Shown piece by piece: positions 25,614 to 31,362 of a stretch of 64,000 bases of DNA (positions within the stretch are counted from its first letter, which is position 1; each line of letters opens with the position of its first letter). This stretch comes from Halorubrum depositum (GTDB lineage: Archaea > Halobacteriota > Halobacteria > Halobacteriales > Haloferacaceae), in contig NZ_VCNM01000001.1 in assembly GCF_007671725.1 (NCBI RefSeq), forward strand, positions 372,001 through 436,000, written 5' to 3'. A program made the translations under genes and the position numbers. The notes beneath the pieces are model-generated. The model did not search any database. It was not told the DNA's origin and worked only from the letters and a program-made list of their open reading frames with translations.

Positions 25614-25964
25614 ATGAGCGACGAGGCGGACGAGGGCGACGAGGTGTTGCGCGCCAGCGACATCGGCGGGGAGGGACCGCCGATCGAGGAGAAGCCGTAC
25701 AAGATCGTCTTCGAGGCCAACAAGTGCTTCGGGGCGGGGAAGTGCGCCGAGGTCGCCGACAACTGGGTGATGGACGTCCAGAGCGGGATGGCGAAGCCGC
25801 GGTCGTACTACATCGGCGAGGACGAACTGGAGGAGAACGTGCGGGCGGCAGAGGTGTGTCCCGCTAAGAAGGAACGGGGCGTAATCCACGTCGTCGACCG
25901 ACGCACGGACGAGGAGATCGCGCCCGACCCGCACGGCGACGGCACGCTCTCCGTCGACTGGTAG
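25614..25964 (+). CDS. Ferredoxin-like iron-sulfur protein (3Fe-4S/4Fe-4S single-cluster type)
   Basis: The 116-residue protein has the cluster ligands CFGAGKC (residues about 43-49) and a later CPAK (about 83), in the arrangement of short single-cluster ferredoxins (EANKCFGAGKCAEVADNWVMD and RAAEVCPAKK). Only three cysteines are visible, which fits a 3Fe-4S cluster or a 4Fe-4S cluster with a non-Cys ligand. A 30-residue acidic N-terminal extension precedes it. The electron partner is unknown. Confidence 0.85.
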   Translation: MSDEADEGDEVLRASDIGGEGPPIEEKPYKIVFEANKCFGAGKCAEVADNWVMDVQSGMAKPRSYYIGEDELEENVRAAEVCPAKKERGVIHVVDRRTDEEIAPDPHGDGTLSVDW

Positions 25965-26047: not shown

Positions 26048-26132
26048 GCGGGGGTGGCTGAGCCTGGCCAAAAGCGGCGGACTTAAGATCCGCTCCTGTA
26101 GAGGTTCGAGGGTTCGAATCCCTTCCCCCGCA
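26048..26132 (+). tRNA. tRNA-Leu (anticodon UAA)
   Basis: The 85-nt cloverleaf has acceptor GCGGGGG (26048-26054) pairing with CCCCCGC (26125-26131), discriminator A at 26132, anticodon stem GCGGA/TCCGC with loop CTTAAGA (anticodon TAA at 26084-26086), a long variable arm, and a T-loop in GGTTCGAATCC. The long variable arm and anticodon fit leucine. CCA is not encoded. Confidence 0.96.
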
Positions 26133-26595: not shown

Positions 26596-26910
26596 ATGAA
26601 TATCAAAACGAGTAGGGACGGAGACGTCCCCGTATACAAAGTCGATCTGGACGAGGCCACCGACCGATCGACGAGCAATGTAGTGGTCAGCAGTATCGCA
26701 GACTTGACTGGCCGAGACCCGAACGACCTCGATCCGTTGTGGGACAGCGTGGATCCGGAAGCGTTGGACTCGTTCGTGGACCACGCGAGCGAATACTCGA
26801 CTCCGTATCAGCTCTCTTTCCAGTACCAGGAGCACACGGTCGACATCGTCGAGAACCGATGGCTTCGGATCACCCCAACCGAAGAAGCGACTTCGTCCGC
26901 GAGCGATTAG
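26596..26910 (+). CDS. HalOD1 output domain protein
   Basis: The 104-residue protein (VVSSIADLTGRDPNDLDPLWDSVDPEALDSFVDH, then ITPTEEATS) matches the haloarchaeal HalOD1 output domain in length and motifs. Such stand-alone domains are thought to act in signalling, but their partners are unknown. An AT-rich promoter region (about 26490-26530) precedes it after the tRNA repeats. Confidence 0.85.
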   Translation: MNIKTSRDGDVPVYKVDLDEATDRSTSNVVVSSIADLTGRDPNDLDPLWDSVDPEALDSFVDHASEYSTPYQLSFQYQEHTVDIVENRWLRITPTEEATSSASD

Positions 26911-27053: not shown

Positions 27054-27506
27054 CTAACAGCAGAACATGAACGGGTACACCAAGGCGACGCGGTCGCCCT
27101 CCTCCAGCTTCGTGTCGAAGCCGTTCTCGTTCTCGTTGAAGTGGCCGTTCACGAGGATCCGGGCGTACGCGATGGTCTGCTCGCCGAGCGGGTTCTTCGT
27201 CCACGTGCCGGGGAGCTCCTCGGGCGTCGGCGCCCACCCGCTGTGGGTCGCGTCCGCCTCGGTCTCGGCGATGAGCATGTCCTGCAGCTCCGGGTACTCC
27301 GCGAACAGCTCGTCGAGGAACTCGCGGAGCGTGTCGCCAGCGAACGTGTACTCGAACTCGTACTCGCCCAGCTCCGTGCGGACGTGGCCGGTACAGCGGA
27401 CGGTGACGGTCGTCTCCGCCTCGGTCTCGGGCTCCGCCGCGGCGTCGCCCGCGTCGTCCGTCGCCTCCTCGCCGGCGGCCTCCGCCGCCTGCTGACTCGA
27501 TGACAT
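27054..27506 (-). CDS. MoaD/ThiS-like ubiquitin-fold protein ending in Cys-Cys
   Basis: The 150-residue protein starts at ATG 27506 (MSSSQQAAEAAGEE). After an acidic 30-residue leader it shows a beta-grasp pattern (TTVTVRCTGHVRTELGEYEFEYTFAGDTLREFLDELFAEYPEL). The typical C-terminal region is ILVNGHFNENENGFDTKLEEGDRVALVYPFMFCC. Sulfur-carrier and SAMP proteins normally end in Gly-Gly; here the last two residues are Cys-Cys. It is divergent from the nitric oxide reductase gene with a 158-bp shared promoter region, so a redox or maturation role with that enzyme is possible. Confidence 0.85.
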   Translation of the reverse strand: MSSSQQAAEAAGEEATDDAGDAAAEPETEAETTVTVRCTGHVRTELGEYEFEYTFAGDTLREFLDELFAEYPELQDMLIAETEADATHSGWAPTPEELPGTWTKNPLGEQTIAYARILVNGHFNENENGFDTKLEEGDRVALVYPFMFCC

Positions 27507-27664
27507 ACCCCTCCGTAGGGCGTTCCCGGGCGTAAGCGCCGCCACGAACATGTTCGCGTACCGGTTTCGGCTCGGCGACCTCGGCGGGCGTCCCGGCTCG
27601 CGGGAACGGCGGCCGAACATGTTGCCGCTAAACTGATAGGGCGAGCGGGGGCAATCCCCCGCCG

Positions 27665-29956
27665 ATGGAGCTCACACGGAAGACTATCGCGAAGGTCATC
27701 GTCGCGGCGTTCCTGCCCAACCTGGTCGTGATGGGCGCCGGGGCGTGGTTCGCGTATCAGGAGGCGCCGCCCATTCCCGAGGAGGTGGTCGGCCCCGACG
27801 GCGACGCGGTCGCGACCGGCGAGTCGATCCGGGACGGGAAGGCGGCGTTCCAGCAGTACGGACTGATGAACCACGGGTCGATCCTCGGCAACGGCGCGTA
27901 CTACGGCGAGGACTACACCGCCGACACGCTCGACCTGAAGGCCGCGCACATGCGCGAGTACTACGCGCGGGAGGAGTACGGGACCGGCTACGACTCGCTC
28001 GACGCCTCTGAGCGGGCGGGGATCGACCAGACGGTCCGCGACGACCTCGACAGCGCGCACGACGGCGGGGCGATCGAGTACTCCGCCGCGGAGGTGTACG
28101 CCCACGAGCGGGTGCGCGAGACGTACGTCGAGCGGTACCACGAGGGCGACCACGACCGGGGCGTCCCCGTCGGGATGATCGAGTCTCGCGAGGGGGCCGA
28201 GGAGTTCGCCGACTTCGCGCTGTGGACGGCGTGGTTCTCCCACACCGACCGGCCCGGATCCGACAACTCCTACACGAACGAGTGGCCATACTCGCCGCCC
28301 GCCGGCAACGACGCCACCGGCGCCGCGATGGTGTGGAGCGTGATCGCGATGGTGCTGCTCGTCGGCGCGGCCGGCGCCGCCATCCTGCTGTACAAGTCGG
28401 TGAAGCTCCCGGAGCCGTCGGCCGAGGGCATCTCGGTGCCGGAGCCGGGCGACGTGAGCGTCTTCCCGAGCCAGCGCGCGGCGCTCAGGTTCGTCCCCGT
28501 CGCCGCCGGATTGTTCCTCGCGCAGGTGTTGCTGGGCGGGTTGCTGGCGCATTTCTACATCGAACGCGCGGGCTTCTTCGGGATCGAGGAGCTGTTCGGC
28601 GTCCACATCCTCCAGCTGCTCCCCTTCGCCATCGCGAAGACGTGGCACATCGACCTCGGCATCCTCTGGATCGCGTCGACGTGGCTCGGCGCCGGGCTGT
28701 TCCTCCCGCCGCTCCTGACCGGCCACGAGCCGCGGAATCAGGCCCGGTACGTCAACGTCCTGCTGGGCGCGCTCGTGGTCGTGGTCGGCGGCGGGATGGC
28801 CGGCATCTGGCTCGGCGCCAACGGCTACCTCCCCGGCGAGCTCTGGTGGCTCCTCGGCAACGAGGGGTTGGAGTACCTCGAGGTCGGAAAGGTGTGGCAG
28901 GGCGGCCTGCTCGTGGGGTTCGTCCTCTGGGCCGTGCTCGCGGTCCGGGGACTCAAACCCCTGCTCGACCGCGAGCCGATATACGGGCTCGCGCACATGA
29001 TCCTCTACGCGGGCGGCTCGATCACCCTGCTGTTCGTCGCCGGCTTCCTGTTCACGCCGTCGACGAACATCGCCGTCACGGAGTTCTGGCGGTGGTGGGT
29101 CGTCCACATGTGGGTCGAGGGCGCCTTCGAGTTCTTCATCGTCGCGATCATCGGGCTCACCTTGGTGTCGATGAACCTCCTCACCCGTCGCAGCGCCGAG
29201 AAGGCGGTGATGCTGCAGGCGCTGCTGGTGATGGGGACCGGCGTCATCGGCGTCTCCCACCACTACTGGTGGGTCGGGATGCCCGACTACTGGGTGCCGA
29301 TCGGGAGCGTCTTCTCGACGCTGGAGCTGCTCCCGCTGATCTTCATCCTCTACGAGGCCATCGGTCAGTACCGGGCGATGACGGGCTCCGGCGGGTTCCC
29401 CTACACGCTCCCGTTCATGTTCATCGTCGCCAGCGGGGTGTGGAACTTCGTCGGCGCCGGGGTGCTCGGCTTCTTCATCAACCTCCCGCTCGTCAACTAC
29501 TACGAGCACGGCACCTACCTCACCGTCGGTCACGCCCACGCGGCGATGTTCGGCGCCTTCGGGTTCCTCGCGCTCGGGATGGTCGCGTACATGCTCCAGC
29601 TGTCGATCGACCCCGACCGCTGGGACGGCTCGTGGCTCCGCGCCTCGTTCTGGCTCTGGAACGTCGGGCTCGCGCTGATGGTGTTCGTCTCAGTGCTCCC
29701 GGTCGGATTCCTCCAGCTCGACGTCGCGTTCACGGAGAGCTACGCCGCGGCTCGCAGCCTCGCGTTCTACGAGCGACCGCTCGTCCAGGCGCTGTTCTGG
29801 GCGCGGCTCCCGGGCGACACGCTGCTCATCCTCGGCACCGTCGTCTACGCCGCCGACGTGGTTCGGAAGCGCTTCGTGCTCCGGCGCTCCGAGGACGACC
29901 CGACCGTCGACGACATGGCCGTCGCGGAGGGGATCGTCGGCGGCGACGACGACTGA
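27665..29956 (+). CDS. norB: Quinol-dependent nitric oxide reductase (qNOR)
   Basis: The 763-residue single-chain enzyme reduces NO to N2O using quinol. It has an N-terminal membrane helix and a periplasmic-type domain (FQQYGLMNHGSILGNGAYYGEDYTADTL) like the cytochrome c-derived region of qNOR but without CxxCH. A NorB-type catalytic core of about twelve helices follows. Ligand motifs are visible: VHMWVEGAFEFF (His and Glu of the FeB site), SHHYWWVG (the adjacent His pair) and GHAHAAMFGAFG. No norC is present, as expected for the fused type. Denitrification or NO detoxification is the role. No other nir/nos genes are in the window. Confidence 0.95.
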   Translation: MELTRKTIAKVIVAAFLPNLVVMGAGAWFAYQEAPPIPEEVVGPDGDAVATGESIRDGKAAFQQYGLMNHGSILGNGAYYGEDYTADTLDLKAAHMREYYAREEYGTGYDSLDASERAGIDQTVRDDLDSAHDGGAIEYSAAEVYAHERVRETYVERYHEGDHDRGVPVGMIESREGAEEFADFALWTAWFSHTDRPGSDNSYTNEWPYSPPAGNDATGAAMVWSVIAMVLLVGAAGAAILLYKSVKLPEPSAEGISVPEPGDVSVFPSQRAALRFVPVAAGLFLAQVLLGGLLAHFYIERAGFFGIEELFGVHILQLLPFAIAKTWHIDLGILWIASTWLGAGLFLPPLLTGHEPRNQARYVNVLLGALVVVVGGGMAGIWLGANGYLPGELWWLLGNEGLEYLEVGKVWQGGLLVGFVLWAVLAVRGLKPLLDREPIYGLAHMILYAGGSITLLFVAGFLFTPSTNIAVTEFWRWWVVHMWVEGAFEFFIVAIIGLTLVSMNLLTRRSAEKAVMLQALLVMGTGVIGVSHHYWWVGMPDYWVPIGSVFSTLELLPLIFILYEAIGQYRAMTGSGGFPYTLPFMFIVASGVWNFVGAGVLGFFINLPLVNYYEHGTYLTVGHAHAAMFGAFGFLALGMVAYMLQLSIDPDRWDGSWLRASFWLWNVGLALMVFVSVLPVGFLQLDVAFTESYAAARSLAFYERPLVQALFWARLPGDTLLILGTVVYAADVVRKRFVLRRSEDDPTVDDMAVAEGIVGGDDD

Positions 29957-29966
29957 GCGGGCGACC

Positions 29967-30017
29967 GCTCACCGCAGTCGGTCGCTCACCGCAGTCGGTC
30001 GCTCACCGAAGCCGGTC
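29967..30017. repeat. 17-bp tandem repeat, three copies
   Basis: GCTCACCGCAGTCGGTC is repeated at 29967-29983 and 29984-30000, with a third copy at 30001-30017 differing at two positions. A partial fourth unit (GTTCACCG) follows. The third unit carries the stop codon of the gene on the minus strand (30003-30452), so slippage here could shift that protein's C-terminus. It lies between convergent gene ends. Confidence 0.75.
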
Positions 30018-30452
30018 GTTCACCGCGCGCCGGATGCGGTCAATGAAGCCGGAGTCATCGACGGACCGGGGCTCGATGAGCTCCCAGTCGGCCCGCTCGG
30101 CCGCCTCGCGGATCGGGCGGTACTCGAAGCCGACGTGCGTCGCGACGCGGCGGTCGGACGGGGAGGTCCCCACGAAGACGTGTCGGGGCGTGTCGGCCTC
30201 GTCGTAGACGTCGCCGAGCGTCCCCCACTTGTCCCAGTTGCGGAGCGCGTAGTCGTTCTCGACGCCGTGTTCGCGGACGAACCGCTCGACTGCGTCGGCG
30301 TCGTTGGCGACGATCCCGACGTACCGGCTCCACCGGCGGGCCTCCGCGAACGCCGCCGCGGGGTCGGCGAGCCGCCGCGCCGCGCCGAGCGAGAGGACGA
30401 GCGTCAGCTCGCCGCTCCGGGTCGCGGGGTCGTCGTCGACGTCGAGGCTCAT
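30003..30452 (-). CDS. Conserved haloarchaeal protein of unknown function
   Basis: The 149-residue protein from ATG 30452 (MSLDVDDDPATRSGELTLVLSLGAARRLADP) has an alpha/beta pattern: RYVGIVANDADAVERFVREHGVENDYALRNWDKWGTLGDVYDEA, then HVFVGTSPSDRRVATHVGFEYRP. It resembles a family that I recall as DUF7124. There are no metal or membrane motifs. Its 3' end falls in the 17-bp tandem repeat. The function is unknown. Confidence 0.8.
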   Translation of the reverse strand: MSLDVDDDPATRSGELTLVLSLGAARRLADPAAAFAEARRWSRYVGIVANDADAVERFVREHGVENDYALRNWDKWGTLGDVYDEADTPRHVFVGTSPSDRRVATHVGFEYRPIREAAERADWELIEPRSVDDSGFIDRIRRAVNDRLR

Positions 30453-30534
30453 GGACGCTCGTTTGCGGTTCGACCGCGACCGACTAAACCGTGTGGGGAG
30501 GCTTATGAGGGGCGCGGGCGTCGCTGGCGGTGAC

Positions 30535-31362
30535 ATGGAGTTCGAGGCCACCTTCGGCACGGACGCGCCGGTGATCGGCATGGTACACCTCCCGCCCCTC
30601 CCGGGCGCGCCGAAGGCGCCGGCGGACGGCGCCCGCGCGATGCGGGACGCGCTCGACCGCGCCGCGGCCGACGCCCGCGCCCTCGACCGCGGCGGCGTCG
30701 ACGGGGTCATGATCGAGAACTTCGGCGACGCCCCCTTCTACCCCGACGACGCGCCGAAACACGTCGTCGCGGCGGTCACGCGCGCCGCGACCGCGGTCGC
30801 CGCCGAGACCGACCTCCCGATCGGGGTCAACGTCCTGCGGAACGACGCCGAGGCCGCGCTCTCCGTCGCGGCCGCGGTCGGCGCCGACTACGTCCGGGTG
30901 AACGTCCACACCGGCGCCCGCGTCACGGACCAGGGGATCGTGCAGGGGAAGGCCCACGAGACGCTCCGGCTCCGGGAGGCGCTCGGCGTCGACGTCGGGA
31001 TATTCGCCGACACCGACGTGAAGCATTCCGCGCCGCTGTCGGCGGAGGGACACACCGCGGAGTCGTTCGCCGACACCGCCGAGCGCGGCCTCGCCGACGC
31101 CGTCGTCGCCTCCGGACGGGGGACCGGCGAGGAGACCGACCCGGAGGCGCTGGCGGCGGTCGTCGCCGAGCGCGACGCGCACGGGCTCGACACGCCGGTC
31201 CTCGTCGGGAGCGGAGCCACCGCCGAGACGGTCGCCGACGCCCTCTCGGTCGCCGACGGCGTCATCGTCGGCACGGCGCTCAAGGAGGGCGGCGAGACGA
31301 CCGCTCCGGTCGACTCGGAGCGGGTCGCCGAACTCGTCTCGCGGGCGGACGAGGCGCGGTGA
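30535..31362 (+). CDS. BtpA/SgcQ family TIM-barrel protein
   Basis: The 275-residue protein starts at ATG 30535. Typical motifs are VIGMVHLPPLPGAPKAP, GVDGVMIENFGDAPFYPDD, PIGVNVLRNDAEAAL, YVRVNVHTGARVTDQGIVQGKAHE and VGSGATAETVADAL. These give the BtpA fold, a TIM barrel first linked to photosystem I biogenesis in cyanobacteria. In archaea the role is unclear, perhaps a sugar or nucleoside-related lyase. It is convergent with the PfkB kinase gene, and such neighbours often share nucleoside or sugar metabolism, which is an inference here. Confidence 0.9.
   Translation: MEFEATFGTDAPVIGMVHLPPLPGAPKAPADGARAMRDALDRAAADARALDRGGVDGVMIENFGDAPFYPDDAPKHVVAAVTRAATAVAAETDLPIGVNVLRNDAEAALSVAAAVGADYVRVNVHTGARVTDQGIVQGKAHETLRLREALGVDVGIFADTDVKHSAPLSAEGHTAESFADTAERGLADAVVASGRGTGEETDPEALAAVVAERDAHGLDTPVLVGSGATAETVADALSVADGVIVGTALKEGGETTAPVDSERVAELVSRADEAR

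Follow-up and report, generated by a model that had tools for sequence, protein, structure and literature searches.

A small MoaD/ThiS-like protein of Halorubrum depositum carries a cysteine where its relatives carry the Gly-Gly of their C-terminal tail, and its gene lies at a near-fixed distance behind a promoter box of the denitrification type. Judged from its sequence, it may be a thiol or persulfide carrier that serves the assembly of respiratory metallo-cofactors and is driven by the low-oxygen box, a statement to which, taken as a whole, we give a probability of roughly 0.4. In broader terms, the Cys-tailed protein is probably a helper for oxygen-free respiration. The gene lies within the 64,000-nucleotide stretch of DNA that was analysed (the window), with the following features:

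27054..27506, minus strand: coding sequence of the Cys-tailed MoaD/ThiS-like protein, 150 amino acids (open reading frame, Pfam, relatives and AlphaFold2)
27057..27062, minus strand: codons of the C-terminal Cys149-Cys150, Cys149 being the conserved residue
27384..27386, minus strand: codon of the near-invariant His41, in a C-T-G-H motif past strand 1
27545..27556, palindrome with no strand assigned: CGAACATGTTCG, denitrification-type promoter box, 50 bp ahead of the start codon of the coding sequence (motif search)
27614..27625, plus strand: degenerate box CGAACATGTTGC, two mismatches, 51 bp ahead of the norB start codon (motif search)
27665..29956, plus strand: norB, quinol-type nitric oxide reductase (qNOR), divergent neighbour (profile matches)

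The open reading frame (window:27054-27506, minus strand) starts at an ATG, encodes 150 amino acids and ends in ...DRVALVYPFMFCC, or over a longer C-terminal stretch in ...GDRVALVYPFMFCC, with YPFMFCC as the final residues. It goes beyond chance, because 70 relatives, all haloarchaeal by record title, emerged when 84,980 species genomes were scanned with sequence patterns, and a repeat search with a profile, made because one of the scan patterns had included the CC end, found the gene in 245 of 391 Halobacteria genomes and in 58 of 86 genera. The protein matches Pfam ThiS at 5e-6 (27.4 bits against a gathering cut-off of 22.5), which places it in the superfamily, and it does not reach the NCBIfam cut-offs for moaD_arch (38.5 against 49.5 bits) or SAMP1 (33.4 against 60 bits). 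An AlphaFold2 model of residues 29-150, for which 61 of the 70 homologues from the pattern scan were supplied (nine were left out), adopts a beta-grasp fold with a mean pLDDT of 74 and a pTM of 0.68, the last three residues falling below a pLDDT of 50. When this model was compared with the PDB, nearly all of the top 25 matches were SAMP1, MoaD, Urm1, CysO or MoaD-related, the best of them being 2l52 (E 3e-6). The open reading frame is real and encodes a MoaD/ThiS beta-grasp protein; the fold had already been read from the sequence in the first-pass annotation, and the Pfam score, the model and its matches to SAMP1 and MoaD bear this out.

With SAMP1 and archaeal MoaD (TIGR01687, NF041918; PDB 2l52, 3po0, 4hro) the family shares the fold, the Pfam ThiS match and, by eye, the length of the tail. 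It differs from them in having Cys149 followed by Cys or a hydrophobic residue in place of Gly-Gly and an extra conserved stretch (GW...LPGTW.KNPEGEQ) ahead of the third strand pair, and the window protein stays under both curated cut-offs. When VYPFMFCC was set by eye against VFPPVAGG, the tail of a SAMP1-type neighbour, the two aligned residue for residue, so that Cys149-X occupies the place of Gly-Gly.

Among 123 distinct pooled sequences, 118 end in Cys-X and five are broken before the end. As tails were assigned to this group by the presence of a Cys at the penultimate position, the figure of 118/118 holds by construction; the five sequences that did not qualify were inspected and found to be broken or frameshifted, and the tandem second copies described below are not part of the set. 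Residue 150 is C in 103 of the 118 intact tails, L in eight, V in four, F in two and Y in one. The same picture emerged from the 70 relatives of the pattern scan, where the penultimate Cys is present in 70/70 and a CC end in 64/70, and from 58 loci of the profile search (the 30 best profile matches together with the loci of 30 genomes lacking qNOR, the CGCGG protein and Cu nitrite reductase, two being shared). Three of these loci are broken and the 55 intact ones all have the penultimate Cys, followed by a second C in 44 and by L, V, F or Y in the other 11. A GG end occurs in none of the 123 distinct sequences, five of which are broken. The suggestion that the Gly-Gly end has been replaced therefore holds across the family, whereas the vicinal Cys-Cys end, which the first-pass annotation proposed as a possible metal, thiol or persulfide carrier, is not required, 15 of the 118 intact tails ending in C followed by L, V, F or Y. 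A strict CC motif was rejected: throughout the family only Cys149 is conserved, and this residue is quite likely to be functionally central.

These tails also bear on whether the protein might be a standard ubiquitin-like modifier (SAMP) whose tail is simply unusual, and which is joined to other proteins either once processed or straight through its Cys. The fold and superfamily would suit such a role, but it is highly improbable given the missing GG ends, the lack of anything past Cys-X to process, and a score below the NCBIfam SAMP1 cut-off.

Other residues are also strongly conserved. Of 117 aligned sequences, 116 have H at position 41 (His41) and 110 have C at position 38 (Cys38), where the other seven carry A, F or G; W91, N105, R116, N124 and R139 are among the invariant positions. 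The main and serious rival to a thiol carrier is a chaperone in which Cys149 and His41 (and Cys38) would bind heme b or a metal (copper, iron) and pass it to enzymes of anaerobic respiration, for example qNOR, COX1-like proteins or nitrite reductase. In favour of this reading, tandem second copies in three genomes (G116, G166 and G388, two of them in one genus; loci L153, L178 and L179) have lost the tail Cys and carry an Arg where the TGH motif has its His, a joint loss that speaks for such a site. The seven sequences without Cys38 and one sequence (L174) with Arg at position 41 despite an intact CC tail argue the opposite way, suggesting that a fixed multi-ligand site is not strict, and the idea of a strict Cys38-His41-Cys149 site is weakened accordingly. 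Moreover, Pfam and NCBIfam profile searches with the Cys-tailed protein returned no match to a metal-binding family, and the tail is modelled as flexible. On balance, we regard the chaperone as somewhat doubtful.

We then consider the promoter. Within 300 bp upstream of the gene, a perfect CGAA-N4-TTCG was found in 107 of 116 distinct stretches, compared with 152 of 3000 random stretches of equal length; of the other nine, seven have one mismatch and two have two. The box is also placed with precision. In the window it lies between the gene and norB, 50 bp before the ATG of the gene, and it falls 44-56 bp before an in-frame start at 89 of 102 distinct loci, as against 9 of 332 control ORFs (other acidic ORFs). 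The spacing is 50 bp at 62 of the 102 loci and 49 bp at 14. Four of the nine box-positive controls represent a Haloarcula gene that faces the Cys-tailed gene from the far side of the shared box; another three represent a single Halorientalis gene whose spacing is 50. A perfect box precedes the gene under 34 of 40 genus labels, and a box with at most one mismatch at 96 of the 102 loci; these upstream and spacing counts, like those for tails and neighbours, were taken over the loci in hand rather than all 245 genomes. The possibility that the palindrome is coding sequence of an N-terminal extension was rejected, conserved coding sequence being unlikely because spacings from 49 to 55 occur that are mutually out of frame. 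Across the 64 kb window as a whole, enrichment of the box is unconvincing (four against 1.9 expected, with at least four in 10 of 100 shuffles); it is the position of the box in the window, not its number, that is special.

The palindrome before the Cys-tailed gene, CGAACATGTTCG, is identical to the Haloferax denitrification promoter motif, to which the regulator NarO is reportedly tied. According to the excerpts of PMC10062603, this sequence is the nor and nos promoter motif in Haloferax mediterranei and precedes 83 genes; mutation of its first base significantly lowered nor and nos promoter activity under anaerobic conditions, with no significant effect on nirK and no decrease for the nar promoter. 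CGAA-X4-TTCG is described in excerpts of PMC5746218 as the likely site of a helix-turn-helix regulator. In H. mediterranei the motif stands 66-79 nt before the start (nirK, nor, nos), whereas the box of the Cys-tailed gene mostly stands at 50 bp.

In the window's own genome, a stricter pattern, CGAAYRYRTTCG, occurs in 19 places, and the reversed control pattern in none. Eight of the 19 sites lie 49-52 bp before the start of a plausible frame. Besides the Cys-tailed gene, these sites precede genes for heme o synthase and a copper-type P-ATPase, for a COX1-like protein that narrowly misses the Pfam cut-off, and for a cupin, a GlutR_dimer-domain protein and two DUF2249 proteins, a set that fits a heme, copper and low-oxygen programme. 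The other 11 sites have no plausible gene at 49-53 bp, basic frames and frames inside another gene having been set aside. The Htur_1727 gene of this genome has its box at 75 bp. At one site (G000:C2:492790-492848, L203/L204), two perfect boxes stand back to back between two divergent genes, one for a COX1-like membrane protein and the other for a DUF2249 protein, both starts being exactly 50 bp from a box.

Genes near the Cys-tailed gene vary in whether they carry the box themselves. A perfect box at 44-56 bp precedes 16/16 COX1-like genes, 15/19 CGCGG genes and 7/15 members of one unnamed family, with lower counts for HTH_10 (5/19), the AhbD-like radical SAM protein (1/26) and Htur_1727 (1/18). 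At this spacing no perfect box was found before norB (0/19), multicopper (0/21), TIGR04347 (0/5), AOR (0/9), SAMP1 (0/10) or universal-stress protein genes (0/10). Elsewhere within 25-80 bp, perfect boxes precede 6/19 norB, 7/22 multicopper and 4/29 AhbD-like genes, which agrees with the distances of 66-79 nt in H. mediterranei. Furthermore, CGAACATGTTGC, or once its one-letter variant CGAATATGTTGC, lies 50-54 bp before norB at 14 of 20 norB loci, the window included; of the remainder, one has no box and five have no assigned start. From these patterns, the Cys-tailed family most likely belongs to a low-oxygen programme in which its box would act within the promoter, a view we hold slightly less firmly than we otherwise might because several denitrification neighbours have no box at 44-56 bp.

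The neighbour that faces the gene across the box in the window is norB, whose product (27665-29956, plus strand) matches NorB_cytochrome_c-like at 2.8e-50 and COX1 at 2e-49. Two other genes lie further out:

26596-26910, plus strand: HalOD1-domain protein (profile match)
30003-30710, minus strand: DUF7124 protein (profile match)

A tRNA-Leu(TAA) is found at 26048-26132, upstream of the HalOD1-domain gene, and a small ferredoxin-like protein, with a Fer4_15 match barely above its cut-off, at 25614-25964.

Gene context was compared across 102 distinct loci under 40 genus labels, drawn from the loci in hand and not from all 245 genomes; the labels numbered 44 before merging and removal of duplicates, and some number labels may coincide with named ones. 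norB adjoins the gene at 18 of these loci and under a single label, Halorubrum, where it does so at 18 of 29 loci. The pairing had been put forward in the first-pass annotation as a sign of a role in NO or heme-iron chemistry; as a conserved feature it was rejected outside Halorubrum, and across genera the gene does not keep its place beside norB. The wider part of that proposal fares better, since the conserved palindrome and the gene context back a link to a denitrification or low-oxygen programme. In two Halorubrum genomes (L003:5083-5931 and L029:5757-5867), the best norB match is a C-terminal piece only, beside an intact Cys-tailed gene, which suggests that the qNOR gene may be lost while the Cys-tailed gene stays.

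Neighbours tied to anaerobic respiration are frequent. AhbC/AhbD-type radical SAM proteins, which match TIGR04053 and TIGR04347 best and the AhbD and AhbC models only below the cut-offs of those models, occur at 30 of the 102 loci and under 15 of the 40 labels, multicopper proteins at 20 loci (6 labels), Htur_1727 proteins at 19 (7 labels), HTH_10 regulators at 19 (10 labels), CGCGG proteins at 18 (7 labels) and COX1-like membrane proteins at 16 (7 labels). At least one of these or norB is present at 65 loci, and none at the other 37. The Htur_1727 family (TIGR04031) is PaaB-like and often stands beside TIGR04347 proteins (for example L193:1009-1437 and L055:6732-7148).

Several of these neighbours speak for the heme or metal chaperone, namely the AhbC/AhbD-type proteins, qNOR, the COX1-like protein and the multicopper protein, as does the box before heme o synthase and the copper-type P-ATPase in the window's own genome. 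Excerpts of PMC5746218 describe AhbD of H. volcanii (HVO_2144) as the anaerobic heme synthase, encoded near nirK and norB and required when the cells grow by denitrification or by respiring DMSO. The TIGR04053 protein at the loci studied here may correspond to AhbD; H. volcanii is one of the controls that match TIGR04053.

In loci from Haloarcula, Halobacterium and Halovenus, the gene is accompanied instead by a tungsten AOR together with a SAMP1 of the GG type. AOR is near the gene at 9 of the 102 loci and the SAMP1-type GG protein at 10; MoaA- and MobB-like frames (L061) and a MoeA-like frame (L069), named by eye, also lie close to it. Such neighbours raise the possibility that the protein is a side protein of the molybdenum or tungsten cofactor, that is, a MoaD variant that works with MPT synthase or a later enzyme and gives sulfur, or competes with true MoaD, in the building of anaerobic molybdo-enzymes. 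A functional precedent exists in PA1006 of P. aeruginosa, which is persulfide-modified and critical for molybdenum homeostasis (excerpts of PMC3568144). This reading is nonetheless unlikely, as AOR and SAMP1 genes carry no box at 44-56 bp and occur under just 4 and 5 of the 40 labels. A SAMP1-like frame in the window's own genome (G000:C1:244494-244754, L185) ends in ...LFPPVSGGSVGR, four residues past Gly-Gly, as if needing processing.

The HTH_10 regulators, the finding of this type of box before NO-handling genes and the single conserved Cys on a flexible tail would also suit a redox or NO sensor or adaptor, in which oxidation or nitrosation of Cys149 would allow the protein to modulate the regulon or some enzyme. 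This evidence is indirect, and the invariant W91, N105, R116, N124 and R139 suggest a specific protein or ligand partner over a bare thiol sensor, which makes this role distinctly improbable.

Co-occurrence was analysed in the 391 Halobacteria genomes, with descent corrected for only in the within-genus test, which used the 364 genomes of known genus. The gene and qNOR occur together in 163 genomes, the gene alone in 82, qNOR alone in 44 and neither in 102 (odds ratio 4.6, p 3e-12, within-genus z 5.5), so that qNOR is absent from 82 of 245 gene-bearing genomes and the gene from 44 of 207 qNOR-bearing ones. The corresponding counts (both, gene only, partner only, neither) are 192, 53, 69 and 77 for the CGCGG protein, 195, 50, 73 and 73 for the AhbD-like radical SAM protein, and 163, 82, 55 and 91 for Cu nitrite reductase, the last as defined by our own cut of E <1e-30 (218 of 304 matches, 208 being above the profile cut-off). 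The label 'AhbD-like' is loose, because TIGR04053 matches fall by E-value into a strong group of 163 and a weak group of 105 and the tally of 265 above the cut-off does not fit the bit estimate of the weak rows. AhbD as the sole explanation of the presence of the gene was rejected, since, with 195 of the 245 gene-bearing genomes and 73 of the other 146 having it, it does no better than qNOR. At least one of the four markers is found in 226 of 245 genomes with the gene and in 93 of 146 without it. The gene is not required for denitrification, since 19 of 245 gene-bearing genomes have none of the markers and 36 of 180 genomes with both qNOR and the AhbD-like protein have no gene. The link between the gene and denitrification markers is clear but loose. 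The CGCGG proteins (TIGR03995, 'rSAM-modified RiPP'; L055:6370-6717 and relatives) themselves co-occur across genomes with genes for nitrite reductase, qNOR and the AhbD-like protein (odds ratios 13-19); given also the box counted above, they may belong to denitrification and not represent a peptide natural product.

How might a thiol or persulfide carrier of this kind work? The MoaD-derived haloarchaeal protein is probably made under low oxygen from the CGAA-N4-TTCG box about 50 bp upstream. The Gly-Gly tail that E1-like enzymes adenylate is replaced by Phe-Cys149-(Cys or hydrophobic), and the flexible tail would probably act through the Cys149 thiol, presumably with no E1 involved. Cys149 may take up sulfur, as a persulfide, or another thiol-bound group, and the loaded group would be shown to an enzyme that assembles a respiratory metallo-cofactor, which may be heme, copper or molybdenum/tungsten, in a manner comparable to MoaD with its thiocarboxylate. 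In MoaD and ThiS, sulfur is placed on the carboxylate of the C-terminal glycine after adenylation (excerpts of PMC2948915). Such carboxylate chemistry is unlikely here because Cys149 replaces the first Gly and several hydrophobic residues are allowed last; a side-chain thiol on an exposed tail would be a natural replacement for it. DsrC/TusE and TusA-type carriers bear sulfur as a persulfide on an exposed or penultimate Cys. Their fold is presumably unrelated to that of the Cys-tailed protein, so they are work-alikes only, in which the exposed or penultimate Cys is the likeness and the persulfide role of Cys149 is putative. In its full form, in which a ubiquitin-fold carrier free of E1 and Gly-Gly is induced by low oxygen and builds respiratory metallo-cofactors with its tail Cys as the persulfide- or ligand-bearing group, the proposal is a tentative one.

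A Halobacteria beta-grasp family with a double-cysteine C-terminus, arCOG00539, is given one line in the excerpts of Makarova and Koonin 2010 (PMC2948915), and it fits the Cys-tailed family by description; the two are very likely the same. Those excerpts give arCOG00539 no function and mention neither conservation of the penultimate Cys alone nor a promoter box. In the literature searched, arCOG00539 appears in PMC2948915 alone, a search on double cysteine, beta-grasp and haloarchaea gave no title on the function of such a family, and searches on haloarchaeal denitrification gave no title on the Cys-tailed protein. MoaD has 0 occurrences in the main texts of PMC11218638 and PMC8305020. Ten plasmid records annotate the protein as a MoaD/ThiS family protein (nine) or a pterin cluster protein (one). 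Within the literature searched, three findings are new: that of the two end residues only the penultimate Cys is conserved, that a promoter box stands at a near-fixed distance, and that the qNOR pairing is restricted to Halorubrum.

An unassigned haloarchaeal protein family whose CC tail was remarked on in 2010 thus gains a likely regulon and one testable residue. If the proposal is true, the MoaD/ubiquitin fold would have a third mode of action in addition to the thiocarboxylate and isopeptide ones. Should Cys149 bear sulfur or a metal group, this fold could act without activation by an E1, and haloarchaeal denitrification would gain a helper.
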